Below, in pieces: positions 16,421 to 22,939 of a stretch of DNA of 32,871 nt. The notes beneath the pieces were generated by a model, which was given only the letters and a program-made list of their open reading frames with translations, ran no database searches and had not been told where the DNA came from. Origin of the DNA: Halobacillus massiliensis (lineage in GTDB: Bacteria > Bacillota > Bacilli > Bacillales > Halobacillaceae). The stretch lies in NCBI RefSeq assembly GCF_900166625.1, contig NZ_LT800499.1:938686-971556 (forward strand), read 5' to 3'. Made by a program: the position numbers and the translations under genes. Every line of letters begins with the position of its first letter. Positions within the stretch are counted from its first letter, which is position 1.

Positions 16421-16792
16421 ATGAGTGAAAAGGTAATGAAGAAAGCACCTAAAGAGACTTGTGATAGCTTTTGTTACGATGAAGCACTTGTTCAACGAGT
16501 ACAGCCGAAAATCGAGAAAGTGGAAGGTGTGGAGCTGATTTTTAAAGCATTATCCGATGCAACACGCATGAAAATTGCGTATGCTTTAACACTAGAGAAG
16601 GAACTATGTGTTTGTGATGTAGCTAATATTATTGGTTCAACCACGGCAACGGCTTCTCATCATTTAAGGTTATTACGCAATATGAAGTTAGCAAAATATC
16701 GCAAAGAAGGAAAACTCGTGTTTTATTCCTTGGCTGACGATCATGTTCATCAGTTAGTTTCCATTGCTTTATTACACTCTAAAGAAGGATGA
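16421..16792 (+). CDS. cadC: CadC, metal-sensing ArsR/SmtB-family repressor
   Basis: A 123-residue winged-helix repressor of the cad operon. The Cd/Pb site of pI258 CadC is conserved in spacing: Cys14 and Cys18 in the N-terminal extension with Cys63-x-Cys65 in the ELCVCDVA segment. The second (alpha-5) Zn site is also present: Asp106, His108, His119 and Glu122 have exactly the D-x-H-(10)-H-x2-E spacing. The recognition helix is TATASHHLRLLRNMKL. AAGGTGG precedes the ATG. It is followed 24 bases later by cadA in one transcription unit. Both metal sites look intact, so the sensor is expected to be functional. Confidence 0.95.
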   Translation: MSEKVMKKAPKETCDSFCYDEALVQRVQPKIEKVEGVELIFKALSDATRMKIAYALTLEKELCVCDVANIIGSTTATASHHLRLLRNMKLAKYRKEGKLVFYSLADDHVHQLVSIALLHSKEG

Positions 16793-16816
16793 CTGCAATA
16801 GATAGGGGGCCTACCG

Positions 16817-19420
16817 ATGAGTCGTATAGAAAAGGAAGTACAATCAAGTTGTTGCTCTAGTCATACGGAACAGAAATCCAATGAAACCCAAGAAAATAGT
16901 TCCTGCTGCTCTGAAAAAGGAAGGCAAGAAGTTTCTAATTCTTCTACATGTTGCGGAAATGATACAAACGAGAAAGAGGATTCAGCTATTTCCACATGCA
17001 GTGGAAATGATACAAACACCAAACAAGTACCTACAGAAAGCCCTTCCTCTTGTTGCAGTACGGGAGAAAGTAAAAATAAACCAATGGAAGCAGTGACTAG
17101 TCAGCCAGAAGGGCAAAAAACCGTCGAGTATAAGATTTATGGAATGGATTGTCCTTCATGTGCAGCAACTATTGAGAAGGGGTTACAAAAGACCAAAGGA
17201 ATCCAATCGGTACGAGTTAATTATGGCACTGGGAAAATGACTGTGGGTGCAGACGACCGATCTGTACACGATGAAATACCTAAGCAGGTTCGCAAATTAG
17301 GCTTTGAAGCTGAGCCTTTGGACCAAAACAGTAATATACAAACGTATAAAATCGAGGGTATGGATTGTGGTTCCTGTGCAATGACGATTGAAAAGCATTT
17401 AAGTAAAAATCCGCATGTGCAAGAGGTTCAGGTTAATTTTTCGACAGGAAAAATGCAAATTGACCATACGACAAATCAAAATGAAATTATTAAAGAGGTC
17501 CAAAGAGCTGGATTTGATGCTTCCTTAGATTCAATCAGTAACCAGAGGAAAGGGACTTCTGATAAAAAGAAAAATGGAATCTCAACCACCACTATATCCG
17601 GTATATTCCTGGCTCTTGGTTTTATGGGCTCTTTTACCAGCGTAACGCCTGGGTTAATTACGATATTATATGCTGTATCTATCCTGGTTGGAGGATATAA
17701 GCCTGCGAAAAGCGCCTTTTACGCCATTAAAAGTGGTTCCTTAGATATGAATGTTCTCATGGCCTCTGCAGCTATTGGGGCCGCCCTCATTGGAGAATGG
17801 TTTGAAGGGGCAACCGTCGTATGGCTATTCGCCTTAGGGAATACTTTACAAAACAGCTCGATTGAGCGTACGAGAGAATCGATTCGAAGTCTCATTAATC
17901 TGACTCCATCAGAAGCCACGGTTAAGTCTGGGGATCAACTTGTTCGAAAACCAGTAGAAGAGGTAGGAGGCCATGATATTATGGTCATCAAACCTGGAGA
18001 GAAAATTCCTCTGGATGGAGAAGTTCTAACAGGTTCATCCAGTATCAACCAGGCTCCCATCACCGGAGAATCCTTACCCGTAGATAAACAGCAAGGCGAT
18101 ACGGTATATGCAGGTACAGTCAATGAAAGTGGATCTTTAGAAGTTAAGGTAACAAAATCAGTAGAAGATACAACGATTGCGAAAATCATTCACCTTGTGG
18201 AAGAAGCTCAGGAGAAAAAAGCCCCGACCCAAGCATTTGTGGATCGTTTTGCAAATGTCTACACTCCTATTGTCTTTACTCTTGCTCTACTGATCATGGT
18301 AGTTCCGCCTTTATTTGGGTTCGGTTCGTGGGGAGAATGGGTGTATAAGGGCCTTGCGCTATTGGTAGTGGCTTGTCCGTGTGCACTGGTTATTTCTACA
18401 CCAGTGGCCATTGTATCTGCGATTGGAAATGCAGCTAGAAATGGGGTCCTTATCAAAGGGGGAACATTCTTAGAAAAGGCTGGAGCTATTCAAGCGATTG
18501 CTTTTGATAAGACAGGGACACTTACAGAAGGTAAACCAAAAGTAACAGAAGTCATTTCCCTTCAAAACAATCGAGAAGAGTTGGTTGGAATCACCCGAAC
18601 CATTGAAGAACATTCCACTCACCCCATCGCTCAAGCCATCACCAGTTATGCTGTAGAGCGAAATATTGGTATGAAACAAGGGGAAGACTTCAAAGCCATT
18701 GCCGGTAAAGGAGCGCAGGCTACAATTAACGGTGTGGAATACTTTGCGGGAAATCCTAAGCTCTTCAAGGATATGGAAGTTCCTCTTCAAGATATAGAAG
18801 AACGCATCGAATCATTGCAAAGCCACGGAAACACGCTTGTAGTGGTAGGTACTCGGACTGAGATTCTGGGTCTCATTGCCGTGGCGGACACCATTCGTGA
18901 CATTACGGTCCAATCCATTCAAAAGCTCAAGCAAGTTGGGATGGGTGAAATGATCATGTTGACAGGTGACAACGAAGGGACAGCGAAAAAAATTGCGGGC
19001 GAGACAGGTGTCGATCGCTACTTTGCTGAGTTATTGCCTGAAGATAAAGTGACCGCCGTTAAGAAATTACAGGATGAAGGAAAGAGCGTTGCCATGGTAG
19101 GGGATGGAATTAATGATGCTCCAGCCCTTGCGACTGCTGACCTTGGTATTGCCATGGGTGGTGCGGGAACAGATACAGCCATGGAAACTGCCGACATTGT
19201 TCTAATGGCCGATAACTTGGAAAAACTCCCGCATACGATTAGTTTGAGTCGTAGAGCCATGAAAATTATTAAACAGAACGTTTGGTTTTCGTTACTAACG
19301 AAACTGGCAGCGCTGCTCTTAATATTCCCAGGCTTTCTAACCTTATGGATGGCCGTGTTAAGTGACACCGGGGCTGCTCTAATAGTTATTCTTAACAGTA
19401 TGAGATTGTTAAGGAAGTAA
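16817..19420 (+). CDS. cadA: CadA, Cd2+/Zn2+/Pb2+-exporting P1B-type ATPase with Cys-rich tail
   Basis: An 867-residue heavy-metal efflux pump. Residues 1-100 are a Ser/Asn/Glu-rich tail with Cys-Cys pairs at 12-13, 30-31, 45-46 and 79-80 plus Cys61. Two HMA domains follow (GMDCPSC 109-115, GMDCGSC 181-187). The core has the TGES actuator loop (416-419), the transmembrane CPC motif (520-522), the DKTGT phosphorylation site (Asp564), the HP locus (602-603) and GDGINDAP (762-769). These match P1B-2 (Zn/Cd/Pb) pumps. Typical CadA proteins have one or two HMA domains and no long tail of Cys pairs, so the tail is unusual. GGGGG precedes the ATG. It is co-transcribed with cadC and ends at a strong terminator. 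Confidence 0.96.
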   Translation: MSRIEKEVQSSCCSSHTEQKSNETQENSSCCSEKGRQEVSNSSTCCGNDTNEKEDSAISTCSGNDTNTKQVPTESPSSCCSTGESKNKPMEAVTSQPEGQKTVEYKIYGMDCPSCAATIEKGLQKTKGIQSVRVNYGTGKMTVGADDRSVHDEIPKQVRKLGFEAEPLDQNSNIQTYKIEGMDCGSCAMTIEKHLSKNPHVQEVQVNFSTGKMQIDHTTNQNEIIKEVQRAGFDASLDSISNQRKGTSDKKKNGISTTTISGIFLALGFMGSFTSVTPGLITILYAVSILVGGYKPAKSAFYAIKSGSLDMNVLMASAAIGAALIGEWFEGATVVWLFALGNTLQNSSIERTRESIRSLINLTPSEATVKSGDQLVRKPVEEVGGHDIMVIKPGEKIPLDGEVLTGSSSINQAPITGESLPVDKQQGDTVYAGTVNESGSLEVKVTKSVEDTTIAKIIHLVEEAQEKKAPTQAFVDRFANVYTPIVFTLALLIMVVPPLFGFGSWGEWVYKGLALLVVACPCALVISTPVAIVSAIGNAARNGVLIKGGTFLEKAGAIQAIAFDKTGTLTEGKPKVTEVISLQNNREELVGITRTIEEHSTHPIAQAITSYAVERNIGMKQGEDFKAIAGKGAQATINGVEYFAGNPKLFKDMEVPLQDIEERIESLQSHGNTLVVVGTRTEILGLIAVADTIRDITVQSIQKLKQVGMGEMIMLTGDNEGTAKKIAGETGVDRYFAELLPEDKVTAVKKLQDEGKSVAMVGDGINDAPALATADLGIAMGGAGTDTAMETADIVLMADNLEKLPHTISLSRRAMKIIKQNVWFSLLTKLAALLLIFPGFLTLWMAVLSDTGAALIVILNSMRLLRK

Positions 19421-19789: not shown

Positions 19790-19818
19790 TTGACGAGTAT
19801 CGAGGCATACAGTAAGAT
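19790..19818 (+). promoter_or_regulatory. Promoter of the riboswitch transcript
   Basis: TTGACG (19790-19795) and TAAGAT (19813-19818) with a 17-base spacer. Transcription would begin near 19825, about 45 bases before the riboswitch aptamer. Confidence 0.6.
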
Positions 19819-19869
19819 AAGTTTACAGTTTATGAGGATAGACTGCGCTCAAGAAGAGCTTATAATTAC

Positions 19870-19978
19870 TCCAAAGGGGAGTAGCTTACAGTTATGTCGA
19901 CAATACGTGGTCTCTTGGCCACCGGCTAAACTGGCAACTTAATGTTGTTTGCGAGACCTTTGCCATTTCAGGTAAAGG
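19870..19978 (+). promoter_or_regulatory. yybP-ykoY (Mn2+) riboswitch
   Basis: The hallmark conserved loops of this class are present: GGGGAGTAGC (19876-19885) and GCGAGACCTTTGCC (19951-19964), with ACCGGCTAAACT (19921-19932) between. P1 is CAAAGG (19872-19877) paired with CCTTTG (19957-19962). The platform can be read: GGTAAAGG (19971-19978) can pair either with CCTTTGCC (19957-19964), which breaks P1 and leaves the terminator free, or with CCTTTACC (20003-20010), which destroys the terminator. Mn2+ stabilising P1 should therefore switch transcription on, as in known Mn2+-exporter leaders. The next gene is the Spo0M-like gene at 20155, not a TerC/MntP-type exporter, which is odd. Confidence 0.9.
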
Positions 19979-19997
19979 GATGAAAATAAACATGTTG

Positions 19998-20034
19998 AAA
20001 GACCTTTACCTGTTATCGGTAAAGGTCTTTTTTT
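19998..20034 (+). terminator. Riboswitch-controlled terminator
   Basis: AAAGACCTTTACC (19998-20010) and GGTAAAGGTCTTT (20018-20030) are perfect 13-base arms with a seven-base loop and a T run. The left arm is the sequence that competes with the antiterminator strand of the Mn2+ riboswitch. Confidence 0.93.
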
Positions 20035-20154
20035 AAAATCTATCATAGGAGGAAGATTAATCTTCAAGATGTAGACAAAAAGTTTAGTTAAAAAAAGGTA
20101 AGGGCATAACATTATATAAATGCTTTATTTAAATATTTTAGGAGGGCAATTAAA

Positions 20155-20541
20155 CTGAAAAAAATGTTGTTAGATTTTTTAAGAATAGGGCGGCCGAAAA
20201 TCGATCTCATTCTTGATTCCCAGAACCCAACAGGAGTTAAAGGGACGTTTTCTCTTTATGGTGGCTGGACAGAACACCGCATTCAGCGCCTTGAATGTGA
20301 TCTCATTAAAGTTTCCAGAGGAGGAAAATTAGAGTTTGTAGCTCCCGTGGTTACCAGACTGATGGCGCAAAGAATTCAACCCAAGGAATATATTGAGGTC
20401 CCTTTCAACTACCAGCTGCCAACAGAACTTCCGCCTCTGCAAAAAGGGGAAGTTTATAAACTTCAAACAAGACTCATTGTAGATAAAAATATGAAATGCA
20501 CAGATACAGATGAATTGGCTGCTGTTCATCCACTTTTTTAA
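20155..20541 (+). CDS. Short Spo0M-like arrestin-fold protein
   Basis: About 128 residues resembling only the N-terminal arrestin-like half of Spo0M, whose full form is about 250 residues: a beta-sandwich pattern with GVKGTFSLYGGWTEHRIQRL, the RIQPKEYIEVPFNYQLPTEL segment and KLQTRLIVDKNMK. Spo0M influences entry into sporulation and cell-shape control in Bacillus. Start choice is unusual: AGGAGGG (20140-20146) is 17 bases from the first ATG (20164) but eight bases from an in-frame CTG at 20155, so CTG initiation is likely. The gene lies 120 bases after the Mn2+ riboswitch terminator with no other promoter of quality, suggesting that manganese controls it. Whether the short form works alone is unknown. 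Confidence 0.72.
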   Translation: MKKMLLDFLRIGRPKIDLILDSQNPTGVKGTFSLYGGWTEHRIQRLECDLIKVSRGGKLEFVAPVVTRLMAQRIQPKEYIEVPFNYQLPTELPPLQKGEVYKLQTRLIVDKNMKCTDTDELAAVHPLF

Positions 20542-21207
20542 TTAGGAAAAGGCTTAATTTAATTGGAGATGAATCCCTTTTTGTTTTGCTACTGTTCTTA
20601 TGAGAAATATCCTATTATTCGCAGGCCTATGTATGGATAAGTGCAGGGGACAAAGTCAGAGTTTAGAAATATGCTTAAGGTAATATTTTAAAGGAAGATA
20701 TTACCATTCATAGATAAAAGCTTTTCTTTAGACAAGGTCAAAGAAGCGTAAGTATATTTTGGAAGGAAATTAGGAGCAAATCTTAAACAAAAGGATTTGC
20801 TCCTTTTCCTTTTGTTTACAGGGAGAAGCGGAGAAGAAGTCAATTCGAGATAACTTCAGTAACTAACAATAAGTGTAAAAAGCATTCCTATATATTGAAT
20901 GAATCAACTTAAAATTAACATAAGAAGTAAAGTTCCAATGCCTAAAGTTCATACTCCATTAAATTGATTTTCTGAAAAATGATTTCCTTTTATAATCCAA
21001 CGGGACCTGAGATTAATCCGATAGTCATGAATATTGCTCCCAAGAACACCACTTAAAGTCACCTTTTCTTAAACGTAAATATACCTCGAAAAGAATAGAA
21101 CAAGAGAACAAATAGAGTTCAGAGTCTCATAAATTGAAAAAAGCTTTTCAAAGAATATTTCTTATGTTAAGTTATCAAATAGTTAATTAAATTAATTTAT
21201 AAATGGT
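20542..21207. other. Long intergenic region with hairpins and a possible micro-ORF
   Basis: No gene of normal size. GGTAATAT (20679-20686)/ATATTACC (20698-20705) is a perfect hairpin, and a strong terminator follows at 20772. A CAGGGGACAAAGTCAGAG string near 20644 resembles repeat ends seen elsewhere in the window. On the minus strand a 20-residue hydrophobic frame (21052 down to 20990, VFLGAIFMTIGLISGPVGL, GTG start) follows AAGGTGA. TTGAAAA (21134-21140)/TTTTCAA (21145-21151) is a small palindrome upstream of the symporter gene. Confidence 0.35.
20772..20808 (+). terminator. Rho-independent terminator
   Basis: AGGAGCAAATC (20772-20782) and GATTTGCTCCT (20794-20804) are perfect arms followed by TTTTCC. 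It lies 230 bases after the Spo0M-like gene and probably ends that transcript or an RNA in the gap. Confidence 0.85.
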
Positions 21208-21221
21208 TGTAAGCGACTTCA
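21208..21221 (+). promoter_or_regulatory. Catabolite-responsive element (cre)
   Basis: TGTAAGCGACTTCA matches the CcpA consensus TGWAANCGNTNWCA at 13 of 14 positions. It lies 130 bases before the symporter gene, so glucose repression through CcpA is expected for the symporter-galactosidase operon. Confidence 0.65.
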
Positions 21222-21352
21222 ATTTTTTGAATCATGGCAAAACAAAACCGTAAGAGTACATAAGGTTTAGGCATCATTCGTTTTCCAGGTGAGCCCCAAG
21301 GTTTCTATAGGAGAAGAAAGTTTACATTCCAGTTAAGAAGGAGAGAGAATAT

Positions 21353-22939
21353 ATGAATCTATTTGCGATCGTGTCTTTTTTATTTTTTACTTGTTTAGTT
21401 GCTTTAATCTCGTATTATGTTACGAGAAAAGAAGACTTAAATTCGCAGGATGGTTATTTCTTAGGTGGAAGAAGCTTAGGGGCATGGACGATTGCAGGGT
21501 CTTTAATGCTAACCAACTTGTCAACAGAACAATTAATTGGATTAAACGCCCAAGGTTATTCGGACACCATTGCTGTCATGGGGTGGGAAGTAGGCTCTGC
21601 GATTGCTTTAGTCATTGTGGCCTTTTACCTTTTACCAAGATACTTAAAAGGTGGAATCACAACTATTCCTGACTTTCTGGAAGATCGTTATGATTTTGGC
21701 ACAAAGCAAATTGTAACCATTTTATTTTTATTTGGTTATGTATTTAATCTGTTACCACCAATTTTATATTCTGGAGCCGTTGCCATTAATGGATTATTCA
21801 ACATCCCGGAAACTCTAGGCATAGGCAGACTTCCAGCTTTATATCTAACGGTATTAACGATAGGGATTGTTGGCTCTATTTACGCCATTTTCGGTGGTTT
21901 GAAAGCGGTTGCCGTTTCGGATTCGATTAATGGTGTTGGGCTTTTAATTGGCGGCTTGATGATTCCGATTATTGGTTTATTCGTGCTTGGTGATGGGTCG
22001 ATTAGTGCTGGCTTCTCCACGATCCTGCAAGATTCACCGGAGAAGATGAATTCCATTGGTGATTCTGAAAGCCCTGTGCCATTTAGCACAATGTTTACAG
22101 GGATGCTGCTTGTTAATCTGTTTTATTGGGGTACGGCCCAGCATATTATGCAGCGTGCGATTTCAGCAAAAAGCTTGAAAGAAGGGCAAAAAGGAGTGTT
22201 GATTGCTGCCTTCTTAAAGTTGCTGGGTCCGGTTTTTCTTATTTTACCTGGAATTATCGCTTTCAATATGTTTGGTCCTGATTTAGAACCAACAGATGCT
22301 TATCCAAGACTTGTTCATGAGATCTTGCCAACGCCTTTCGTAGGATTTTTTGCCGCTGTATTATTTGGTGCTATTCTTTCTTCCTTTAACTCAGCATTAA
22401 ACTCATCCGTAACATTAATCGCTTTAAATATATACAAGCCCTATATAAATCCTAAGGCAACAGATAAAGAAGTGGTTCGTAAAGGTAAATATTTCGGTAC
22501 GGCCATTGCTTTATTCGCTATCTGTATTGCTCCATTAATCGATTTGGTACCCCAAGGTTTTTTCCAATACCTGCAGATGGTCAATGGATTTTATAACGTG
22601 CCGATCTTAACGATTATGATTGTTGGTTATTTAACAAAACGAGTGCCAGCTATTGCAGCGAAAGTATCACTGTTTGTCTTTATCTCTACTTACGCAGCAA
22701 CTCAACTCGTATGGGATACGGGGGTGCATTTCCTTCATATCCTAGCTATTCTATTCGTCATATGTTCAACACTTATGTTATTAATAGGAAAACTTTATCC
22801 AAGAAATGAAGATTTCTATCTGGAAGAAAAATCAAAAGTAGATATGCAGCCATGGAAGCTCGTATATCCAGTTGGAATTGCAGCAACCGTCGCCATGATT
22901 ATTATCTATACACTCCTATCACCGGTAGGAATTTTATAA
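21353..22939 (+). CDS. Sodium:solute symporter (SSS/SLC5 family), probable galactoside or galactose transporter
   Basis: A 528-residue membrane protein with about 14 hydrophobic helices. Family signs are the early GYFLGGRSLGAWTIAGSLML segment (TM2, sodium/sugar region), STEQLIGLNAQGY and GLKAVAVSDSINGVGLLIGG. These are close to vSGLT-type sugar transporters. It would import sugar with Na+, which fits a marine or saline habitat. AAGGAGAG precedes the ATG. The next gene, a GH42 beta-galactosidase, starts 31 bases after its stop, so the two form an operon and the substrate is most likely galactose, lactose or a galacto-oligosaccharide. The cre site upstream indicates carbon catabolite repression. 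Confidence 0.9.
   Translation: MNLFAIVSFLFFTCLVALISYYVTRKEDLNSQDGYFLGGRSLGAWTIAGSLMLTNLSTEQLIGLNAQGYSDTIAVMGWEVGSAIALVIVAFYLLPRYLKGGITTIPDFLEDRYDFGTKQIVTILFLFGYVFNLLPPILYSGAVAINGLFNIPETLGIGRLPALYLTVLTIGIVGSIYAIFGGLKAVAVSDSINGVGLLIGGLMIPIIGLFVLGDGSISAGFSTILQDSPEKMNSIGDSESPVPFSTMFTGMLLVNLFYWGTAQHIMQRAISAKSLKEGQKGVLIAAFLKLLGPVFLILPGIIAFNMFGPDLEPTDAYPRLVHEILPTPFVGFFAAVLFGAILSSFNSALNSSVTLIALNIYKPYINPKATDKEVVRKGKYFGTAIALFAICIAPLIDLVPQGFFQYLQMVNGFYNVPILTIMIVGYLTKRVPAIAAKVSLFVFISTYAATQLVWDTGVHFLHILAILFVICSTLMLLIGKLYPRNEDFYLEEKSKVDMQPWKLVYPVGIAATVAMIIIYTLLSPVGIL

Follow-up and report, generated by a model that had tools for sequence, protein, structure and literature searches.

In this study, we analyzed a stretch of 32,871 nucleotides from the Halobacillus massiliensis genome (G000; C2:938686-971556; hereafter the window) and found that a riboswitch of the yybP-ykoY class lies upstream of a short Spo0M gene, a pair that is old and widespread in the order and that makes Spo0M a conserved member of the regulon. 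Mn2+ riboswitches are known as controllers of membrane transporters; here a switch of this class precedes the gene for a soluble protein with an arrestin fold, and it does so in many families of a mostly spore-forming order. We put at roughly two in three the probability of our main reading, namely that a Mn2+ ON-switch drives an old arrestin-lobe protein of the Mn2+ regulon, which likely serves under Mn2+ excess.

The riboswitch class is a known one, whereas for this kind of target gene, conserved across the order, no report was found in the literature searched. Our search revealed no link between the yybP-ykoY (Mn2+) riboswitch and Spo0M, a mention in the tables of the founding riboswitch papers being possible, and found neither TerC together with Spo0M nor a manganese riboswitch together with sporulation control. 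In the available parts of two B. subtilis transcriptome papers that contain both Spo0M and a riboswitch, the two were not connected (PMC2743287, PMC5052260); according to the same excerpts, spo0M is sigma-H and sigma-W dependent in that organism, in contrast with the riboswitch-linked gene described here. The accessible text of an RNA-regulon survey placed yybP-ykoY with transporters, and the words 'sporulation' and 'arrestin' were absent from it (PMC3766115).

A compact yybP-ykoY aptamer and its switch platform

The sequence-only reading had assigned the leader to the yybP-ykoY class and had proposed a search with RF00080. At the gathering cut-off, this model gave no match anywhere in the window; with relaxed filters it scored 14.7 bits in one run and 15.7 bits in another, the latter aligned to positions 19872-19950, against a cut-off of 45. 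Elsewhere in the same genome it marked two places (38.3 and 27.8 bits), both again below the cut-off, and because one of them sits directly before TerC, the cut-off is too strict here, overlooking the compact aptamer subtype in the genome studied. RF00080 was therefore rejected as a classifier, and two covariance models, R1 and R2, were used instead. R1 was made from 25 yybP-ykoY aptamers of the order, none with Spo0M behind it; Spo0M-linked aptamers were kept out in order to avoid circularity. Its sole match in the 32,871 bases up to an E-value of 10 was at positions 19866-19965 of the forward strand (78 bits, E = 4.4e-20), which is beyond chance and establishes homology to yybP-ykoY aptamers by both sequence and structure, so the class assignment was right. 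R2, of which the window sequence is itself a part, scored the same aptamer at 106 bits. The yybP-ykoY-class riboswitch upstream of the short Spo0M gene is therefore real.

The elements that had been named as class-defining were all in place on the forward strand. The L1 signature GGGGAGTAGC occupies positions 19876-19885, and GCGAGACCTTTGCC (19951-19964) comprises the 3' strand of P1 together with its flank; P1, helix 1 of the aptamer alignment, consists of six pairs between its 5' strand CAAAGG (19872-19877) and positions 19957-19962. The L3 signature GTCGACA is found at 19896-19902, its last A (19902) being equivalent to the Mn2+-contacting adenosine, and the leader also contains the CCGGC side of L3. 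As described in the available part of PMC6754395, Mn2+ is contacted by the N7 of this adenosine (A41 in L. lactis, A48 in X. oryzae). The window thus holds both loop signatures and the adenosine, which was invariant in all 64 aligned aptamers and does not belong to the motifs used for their selection. The aptamers of these alignments (A3/A4) were chosen by their L1 and AGACC motifs, which are therefore bound to be invariant. The proposed helices were paired in 97.2% of cells in the 64 aptamers, and both partners had changed in 12 of 26 pairs; pairing fell to 26-45% when the helix partners were slid. Additional pair types in this alignment were no more numerous than in shuffles (170 of 500 as high).

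Compared with the RF00080 class (B. subtilis ykoY/meeY, L. lactis yoaB), the window aptamer has the same L1, P1 and L3 adenosine, and shares the GAGACC block at its 3' side and a transcriptional terminator platform. It differs in its first gene, which codes for a soluble arrestin-lobe protein and not for a transporter (the class is often found before TerC), in lacking helix P2, and in reading GTCGACA for GTCGTCA. With regard to P2, a four-way junction containing this helix was not found in the window, and the alignment favored a junction without it; as the TerC-linked aptamers of the order also lack P2, its absence points to a subtype and not to an outsider. The spacing between GAGTAGC and GTCG was 10-13 nt in 127 of 130 aptamers, TerC-linked ones included, in which both motifs were found, and was unmeasurable in the other three. 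With regard to L3, the base two before 19902 is A in the window and T in most relatives; in the excerpt of PMC6754395, the ACA form belongs to the Mn2+-sensing X. oryzae aptamer and the UCA form to that of L. lactis. Among aptamers linked to Spo0M and TerC, this base was T in 22, A in 11 and C in 3, and it was rejected as a marker of specificity by gene context, since the three bases gave no clean split.

Downstream of the aptamer lies a platform whose anatomy looks like that of a transcriptional ON-switch, judging from its pairing possibilities. The switching strand AGGTAAAGG (19970-19978, forward strand) can form nine Watson-Crick pairs with positions 20003-20011, the left arm of the terminator (ON), or, through 19971-19978, eight pairs (seven Watson-Crick and one G-U) with 19957-19964 at the 3' strand of P1 (OFF), and the two pairings are mutually exclusive. 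The terminator itself (19998-20034, forward strand) is a perfect 13-pair stem (19998-20010/20018-20030) with a 7-nt loop and a run of T. Both the two-partner strand and the perfect terminator had been described beforehand and were confirmed. The terminator is absent from the list of the terminator scan, which we think is a miss of the scan, caused by a perfect stem that continues into the run of T. When 90 riboswitch-Spo0M loci were compared, a terminator was present between aptamer and gene in 61 (0.2 expected in shuffles), and by the criterion applied there was none in the other 29; of those 61, 57 showed double complementarity of the intervening strand, where 10.0 would be expected.

Folding calculations in the absence of ligand gave -61.9 kcal/mol for the OFF structure and -47.7 kcal/mol for the ON structure. 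The unconstrained minimum (-66.0 kcal/mol) was neither of them: it contained the antiterminator pairing, and the 3' strand of P1 was joined to the right arm of the terminator. With OFF far below ON and the minimum being neither, control would have to be kinetic, or else the ligand would have to contribute much binding energy. A consensus scan suggested TTGACG-17-TAAGAT (19790-19818, forward strand; 9/12) as a candidate promoter of the leader. The best promoter-like match, TAGACT-16-TATAAT (19839-19866; 10/12), would place the start so that it cuts into P1. Promoter-like sites in the region were not above chance (4 found, 3.7 expected in shuffles), and none was listed by the scan between the terminator and the gene. 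Just upstream of the riboswitch, positions 16421-19420 of the window contain genes for an ArsR-family regulator and a heavy-metal P-type ATPase of the cadmium type, whose N-terminus is rich in Cys.

A one-lobe Spo0M protein

The gene behind the switch (20155-20541, forward strand) was identified as a short, one-lobe Spo0M gene by PF07070, AlphaFold and Foldseek. Its product has 128 residues if translation begins at CTG 20155, the start given by the sequence-only reading, or 125 residues from ATG 20164, where the open reading frame with a common start of table 11 begins. A Shine-Dalgarno sequence, AGGAGG, is found at 20140-20145 of the same strand; the CTG, 9 nt after it, is conserved in the three sequences compared (the window, the G004 chromosome and G020), and other family members have an ATG at about the aligned position. 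CTG 20155 is a probable start codon.

The match to PF07070 (37.2 bits, against a curated cut-off of 23) covered only positions 3-136 of the 213 in the model, which shows that the gene had rightly been called half-length. Two arrestin-type lobes and a full length of about 250 aa were not found in this product, whose 128 aa fit one lobe of 5cl2, the structure of B. subtilis Spo0M with a 252-residue chain. A profile of 18 relatives matched 5cl2 over residues 6-126 (E = 1.7e-11), a match that a single-sequence search with the product had missed. The AlphaFold model (pLDDT 84.5, pTM 0.77) predicted a beta sandwich of seven strands plus one short helix, for which 5cl2 was also the best PDB match by Foldseek (E = 2.7e-07; TM 0.69-0.70 by query). 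As modeled, the protein consists of a single arrestin-type lobe, and its homology is to the N-terminal half of Spo0M. It was the sole PF07070 match in the genome. Four invariant residues (C48, D49, D117 and D119) were considered as a candidate metal site.

Other Foldseek matches with E-values up to 0.001 were the N-lobes of VDUP-1 (TXNIP) and ARRDC3, beta-arrestin 1, erythrocyte protein 4.2 and BgaA. The model fold is like the N-lobes of alpha-arrestins (VDUP-1/TXNIP, 4gej and 4gei; ARRDC3, 4r7v and 4r7x), with E-values from 1.2e-04 to 6e-04 and TM scores by query of 0.52-0.58; however, identity was 10-18% and the rmsd 5.5-7, the C-lobe is absent here, and other sandwiches (protein 4.2 and BgaA) scored similarly. 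Alpha-arrestins act as adaptors for eukaryotic transporters. The functional likeness to such transporter adaptors is only an analogy. The riboswitch-Spo0M pair described here points to a possible prokaryotic parallel of them.

Conservation of the riboswitch-Spo0M pair and its downstream partners

We compared the locus in 61 genomes (the own genome and 60 relatives), where DNA matches to the riboswitch region were detected in 51 and protein matches in 34, many of them adjoining. In a 299-genome sample of the order, the short-Spo0M profile matched in 196 genomes and R2, run here with stricter filters under which weak aptamers may be missed, in 284. Of the 120 top-scoring short-frame places listed in this sample (at least 90.2 bits), 77 were preceded by an aptamer in the same orientation; linked members are favored in this ranking, because the profile, A1, was made from riboswitch-linked ones. 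The 77 comprised 45 from listed matches, 27 scanned loci, four further ones and one in G048, two of them being weak or decayed (L189, 66.6 bits; L251, 25.1 bits). The figure stands at 77 of 120 because seven scanned short-frame rows of 90.4-94.5 bits, all without an aptamer, are counted in; a rough estimate puts the chance expectation below 0.1. As a negative control, long-frame Spo0M genes (316-349 codons, presumed to be two-lobe), which are lower-scoring rows, had an aptamer in 0 of 20 cases. Among the other lower rows, aptamers were found in 0 of 2 mid-length frames (252 and 285 codons), 0 of 5 short ones and 1 of 1 short fragment; the low-scoring row of G053 had an aptamer, and the long frame in L237 (338 codons) had none.

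When all short-Spo0M loci gathered were considered, 92 of 133 had an aptamer, a proportion that is partly ascertained because loci found via the RNA and loci found via the protein are mixed in this set. The frame of L237 and the gene of G038, which is split by a TAA, were left out of the 133, and L026 and L118 were added to the 92 by hand. The 92 loci came from 88 genomes or records, represented 22 family codes, and included three weak or decayed aptamers (L067/L189, 66.6 bits; L118, 27.8 bits; L251, 25.1 bits), with family code f12 represented solely by L251. The remaining 41 of the 133 lacked an aptamer, as did 12 further short loci that were scanned. On the protein tree, the aptamer label required 9 changes, compared with 35.4 for shuffled labels (0 of 500 as low); the starred branches alone forced four changes. 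Among 19 named loci, a strong aptamer was near the gene in 16 (Halobacillus, Thalassobacillus and Halalkalibacter), a weak one was present in Aquibacillus, and none was found in Bacillus wudalianchiensis or Domibacillus.

Several loci had a more elaborate arrangement. Tandem aptamers about 510 nt apart were observed upstream of a single short Spo0M gene in L056 and L162. L079 (G038) and L120 (Halalkalibacter nanhaiisediminis) have two Mn riboswitches about 1.9 kb apart: behind the first come a short Spo0M frame, interrupted by a TAA, and TerC, and a further TerC lies behind the second. In L030, L058, L062, L166, L171 and L249, the short Spo0M gene is directly followed by one for a small DUF1232 protein (PF06803, as tested for L030), which belongs to a cluster of 11 open reading frames.

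Analysis of the downstream genes revealed TerC (37; MeeY/YkoY family) or CNNM (5) within 700 nt after Spo0M in 42 of the 92 aptamer-linked loci, at distances of 6-566 nt, compared with 0 of the 41 loci without an aptamer, three of which end at a contig end; Pfam confirmed both families on examples (PF03741 and PF01595, respectively). In the other 50 aptamer-linked loci, neither partner was found within this distance (the first downstream open reading frame ran in the direction of Spo0M in 29 of them and against it in 21), so a joint function with TerC or CNNM is not universal.

The nearest relatives of the window gene were two G004 copies and one from G020, which together with it form a starred set of four rows. 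G020 has an intact CNNM gene behind Spo0M, and the G004 copy on a 69-kb contig has a truncated CNNM frame of 126 aa. The aptamer of the latter copy (L067/L189, 66.6 bits) has lost the tip of L3/P3, and this is apparently a decaying riboswitch-Spo0M-CNNM copy on a plasmid-sized contig. No partner stands behind Spo0M in the window or in the chromosomal copy of G004: a tblastn search of 20401-21400 with two CNNM proteins and one TerC gave two weak matches on the opposite strand (E = 0.013 and 0.16), and no open reading frame of at least 80 aa started on the strand of Spo0M over the next 800 nt. The partner in this clade was probably CNNM, now missing from the window, and loss of CNNM is the simplest history of the locus that we infer, because G020 and one of the two G004 copies (there truncated) have CNNM and the window only weak opposite-strand matches. 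An exporter missing from the whole genome was rejected, as CNNM is kept at C2:1105599 and TerC at C2:573782, each behind its own aptamer, along with two MntP-family genes.

Proposed function and alternative explanations

Based on these observations, positions 19866-20034 would act as a yybP-ykoY-class switch that turns transcription ON in response to Mn2+. At low cytosolic Mn2+, 19971-19978 would capture the 3' strand of P1, the terminator at 19998-20034 would form and transcription would end. At high Mn2+, the docked aptamer would keep P1, leaving 19970-19978 free for the left arm of the terminator, and RNA polymerase would read through into the gene at 20155. The product, a single arrestin-type lobe of 125-128 residues, would be induced by Mn2+ and would most likely work in the cytosol as an adaptor for, or a partner of, membrane proteins that handle Mn2+. 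The available text of a preprint reported that the TerC proteins MeeF and MeeY of B. subtilis assist in loading exported Mn2+ enzymes with their metal, that Sec and FtsH proteins co-purify with them, and that meeY is under a Mn2+ riboswitch (PMC10246235). We infer that a Mn2+-induced arrestin lobe beside TerC most plausibly takes part in the metalation of exported enzymes as a partner or adaptor. More tentatively, and as a possibility that we consider less probable than not, one-lobe Spo0M proteins may be Mn2+-induced bacterial arrestins: soluble adaptors that bind TerC/CNNM-type proteins, or the Sec/FtsH machinery with which TerC works, and that regulate how active these are, how they assemble or how fast they turn over under Mn2+ excess. 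In that case, 'sporulation control protein' would be a misnomer for the older role of the family. The conserved linkage itself gives the little-known Spo0M family a physiological context that can be tested, namely Mn2+ excess and the metalation of exported enzymes via TerC.

The sequence-only reading had proposed that Mn2+ directly gates a sporulation factor, in which case the short protein would keep the sporulation role of B. subtilis Spo0M and would be licensed by Mn2+, which sporulation requires. The product is homologous to PF07070 and is the only such protein of a genome that has SpoIVA, as do 288 of the 299 genomes of the order sample, which are thus likely spore-formers. However, SpoIVA is so nearly universal that its co-occurrence is uninformative; none of the 11 genomes without it was among the riboswitch-Spo0M genomes, where arithmetic would predict about three. 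According to the accessible part of PMC3533761, Spo0M also occurs outside the spore-formers and was assumed not to be required for sporulation. In the available text of another study, B. subtilis Spo0M was tied to cell division and membrane organization, and the words 'manganese' and 'arrestin' were absent from that text (PMC5325327). The long-frame Spo0M, which is the form characterized in B. subtilis, was free of aptamers in all 20 cases. The gating of a sporulation factor by Mn2+ was thus unsupported, as the link is one of name and the neighbors that were classified are TerC and CNNM; we regard it as quite improbable. Because the pairing with the aptamer recurs, often together with a metal-transport gene, our results suggest that the short Spo0M should be read in terms of Mn handling and not of spore formation.

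The same neighbors bear on whether the switch, after losing its exporter gene, has come to drive whichever gene lies behind it, with Spo0M as a bystander or a substitute. Comparison with related genomes did reveal the loss of an exporter-type gene that had been suspected, insofar as the CNNM seen in G020, and truncated in the second G004 copy, is apparently missing downstream of Spo0M in the window and the chromosomal copy of G004. But in relatives Spo0M already lies between the riboswitch and CNNM or TerC, and since the pair is old and kept across 22 family codes, Spo0M is not a substitute that followed the loss. The linkage and the label counts on the protein tree (9 versus 35.4) led us to reject the idea that a random gene recently captured the riboswitch, and capture in general seems very improbable. 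Somewhat different is the question of the ligand, as a variant aptamer might sense another divalent ion (for example Ca2+, Mg2+, Ni2+ or Co2+) and lie outside the Mn2+ regulon. CNNM, a family linked to Mg2+, is among the partners, a gene of the Na/Ca exchanger family lies behind one of the genome's other aptamers, and L3 has an A where most relatives have T; yybP variants with altered ion specificity were also suggested in the available part of PMC7266159. Against this, the adenosine that contributes N7 is invariant, the ACA form is that of an aptamer known to sense Mn2+ (PMC6754395, in part), and the L3 base does not cleanly track gene context. Another ion therefore appears unlikely, and Mn2+ would be the ligand of this copy, as in our main reading.

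Two further aptamers were observed in the genome. The one at C2:3524370-3524482 (L126) is divergent (35.4 bits by R2) and precedes a gene of the Na/Ca exchanger family (PF01699); it is among the three whose motif spacing was unmeasurable and has extra sequence at the place of P2, which by reading is able to form a hairpin. The other, at C2:2821883-2821983 (L124; 90 bits by R2), precedes a gene for a 242-aa protein that had no Pfam match at an E-value of 1e-5 and looked kinase-like by eye, and relatives of this protein are encoded behind aptamers in L074 and L080.
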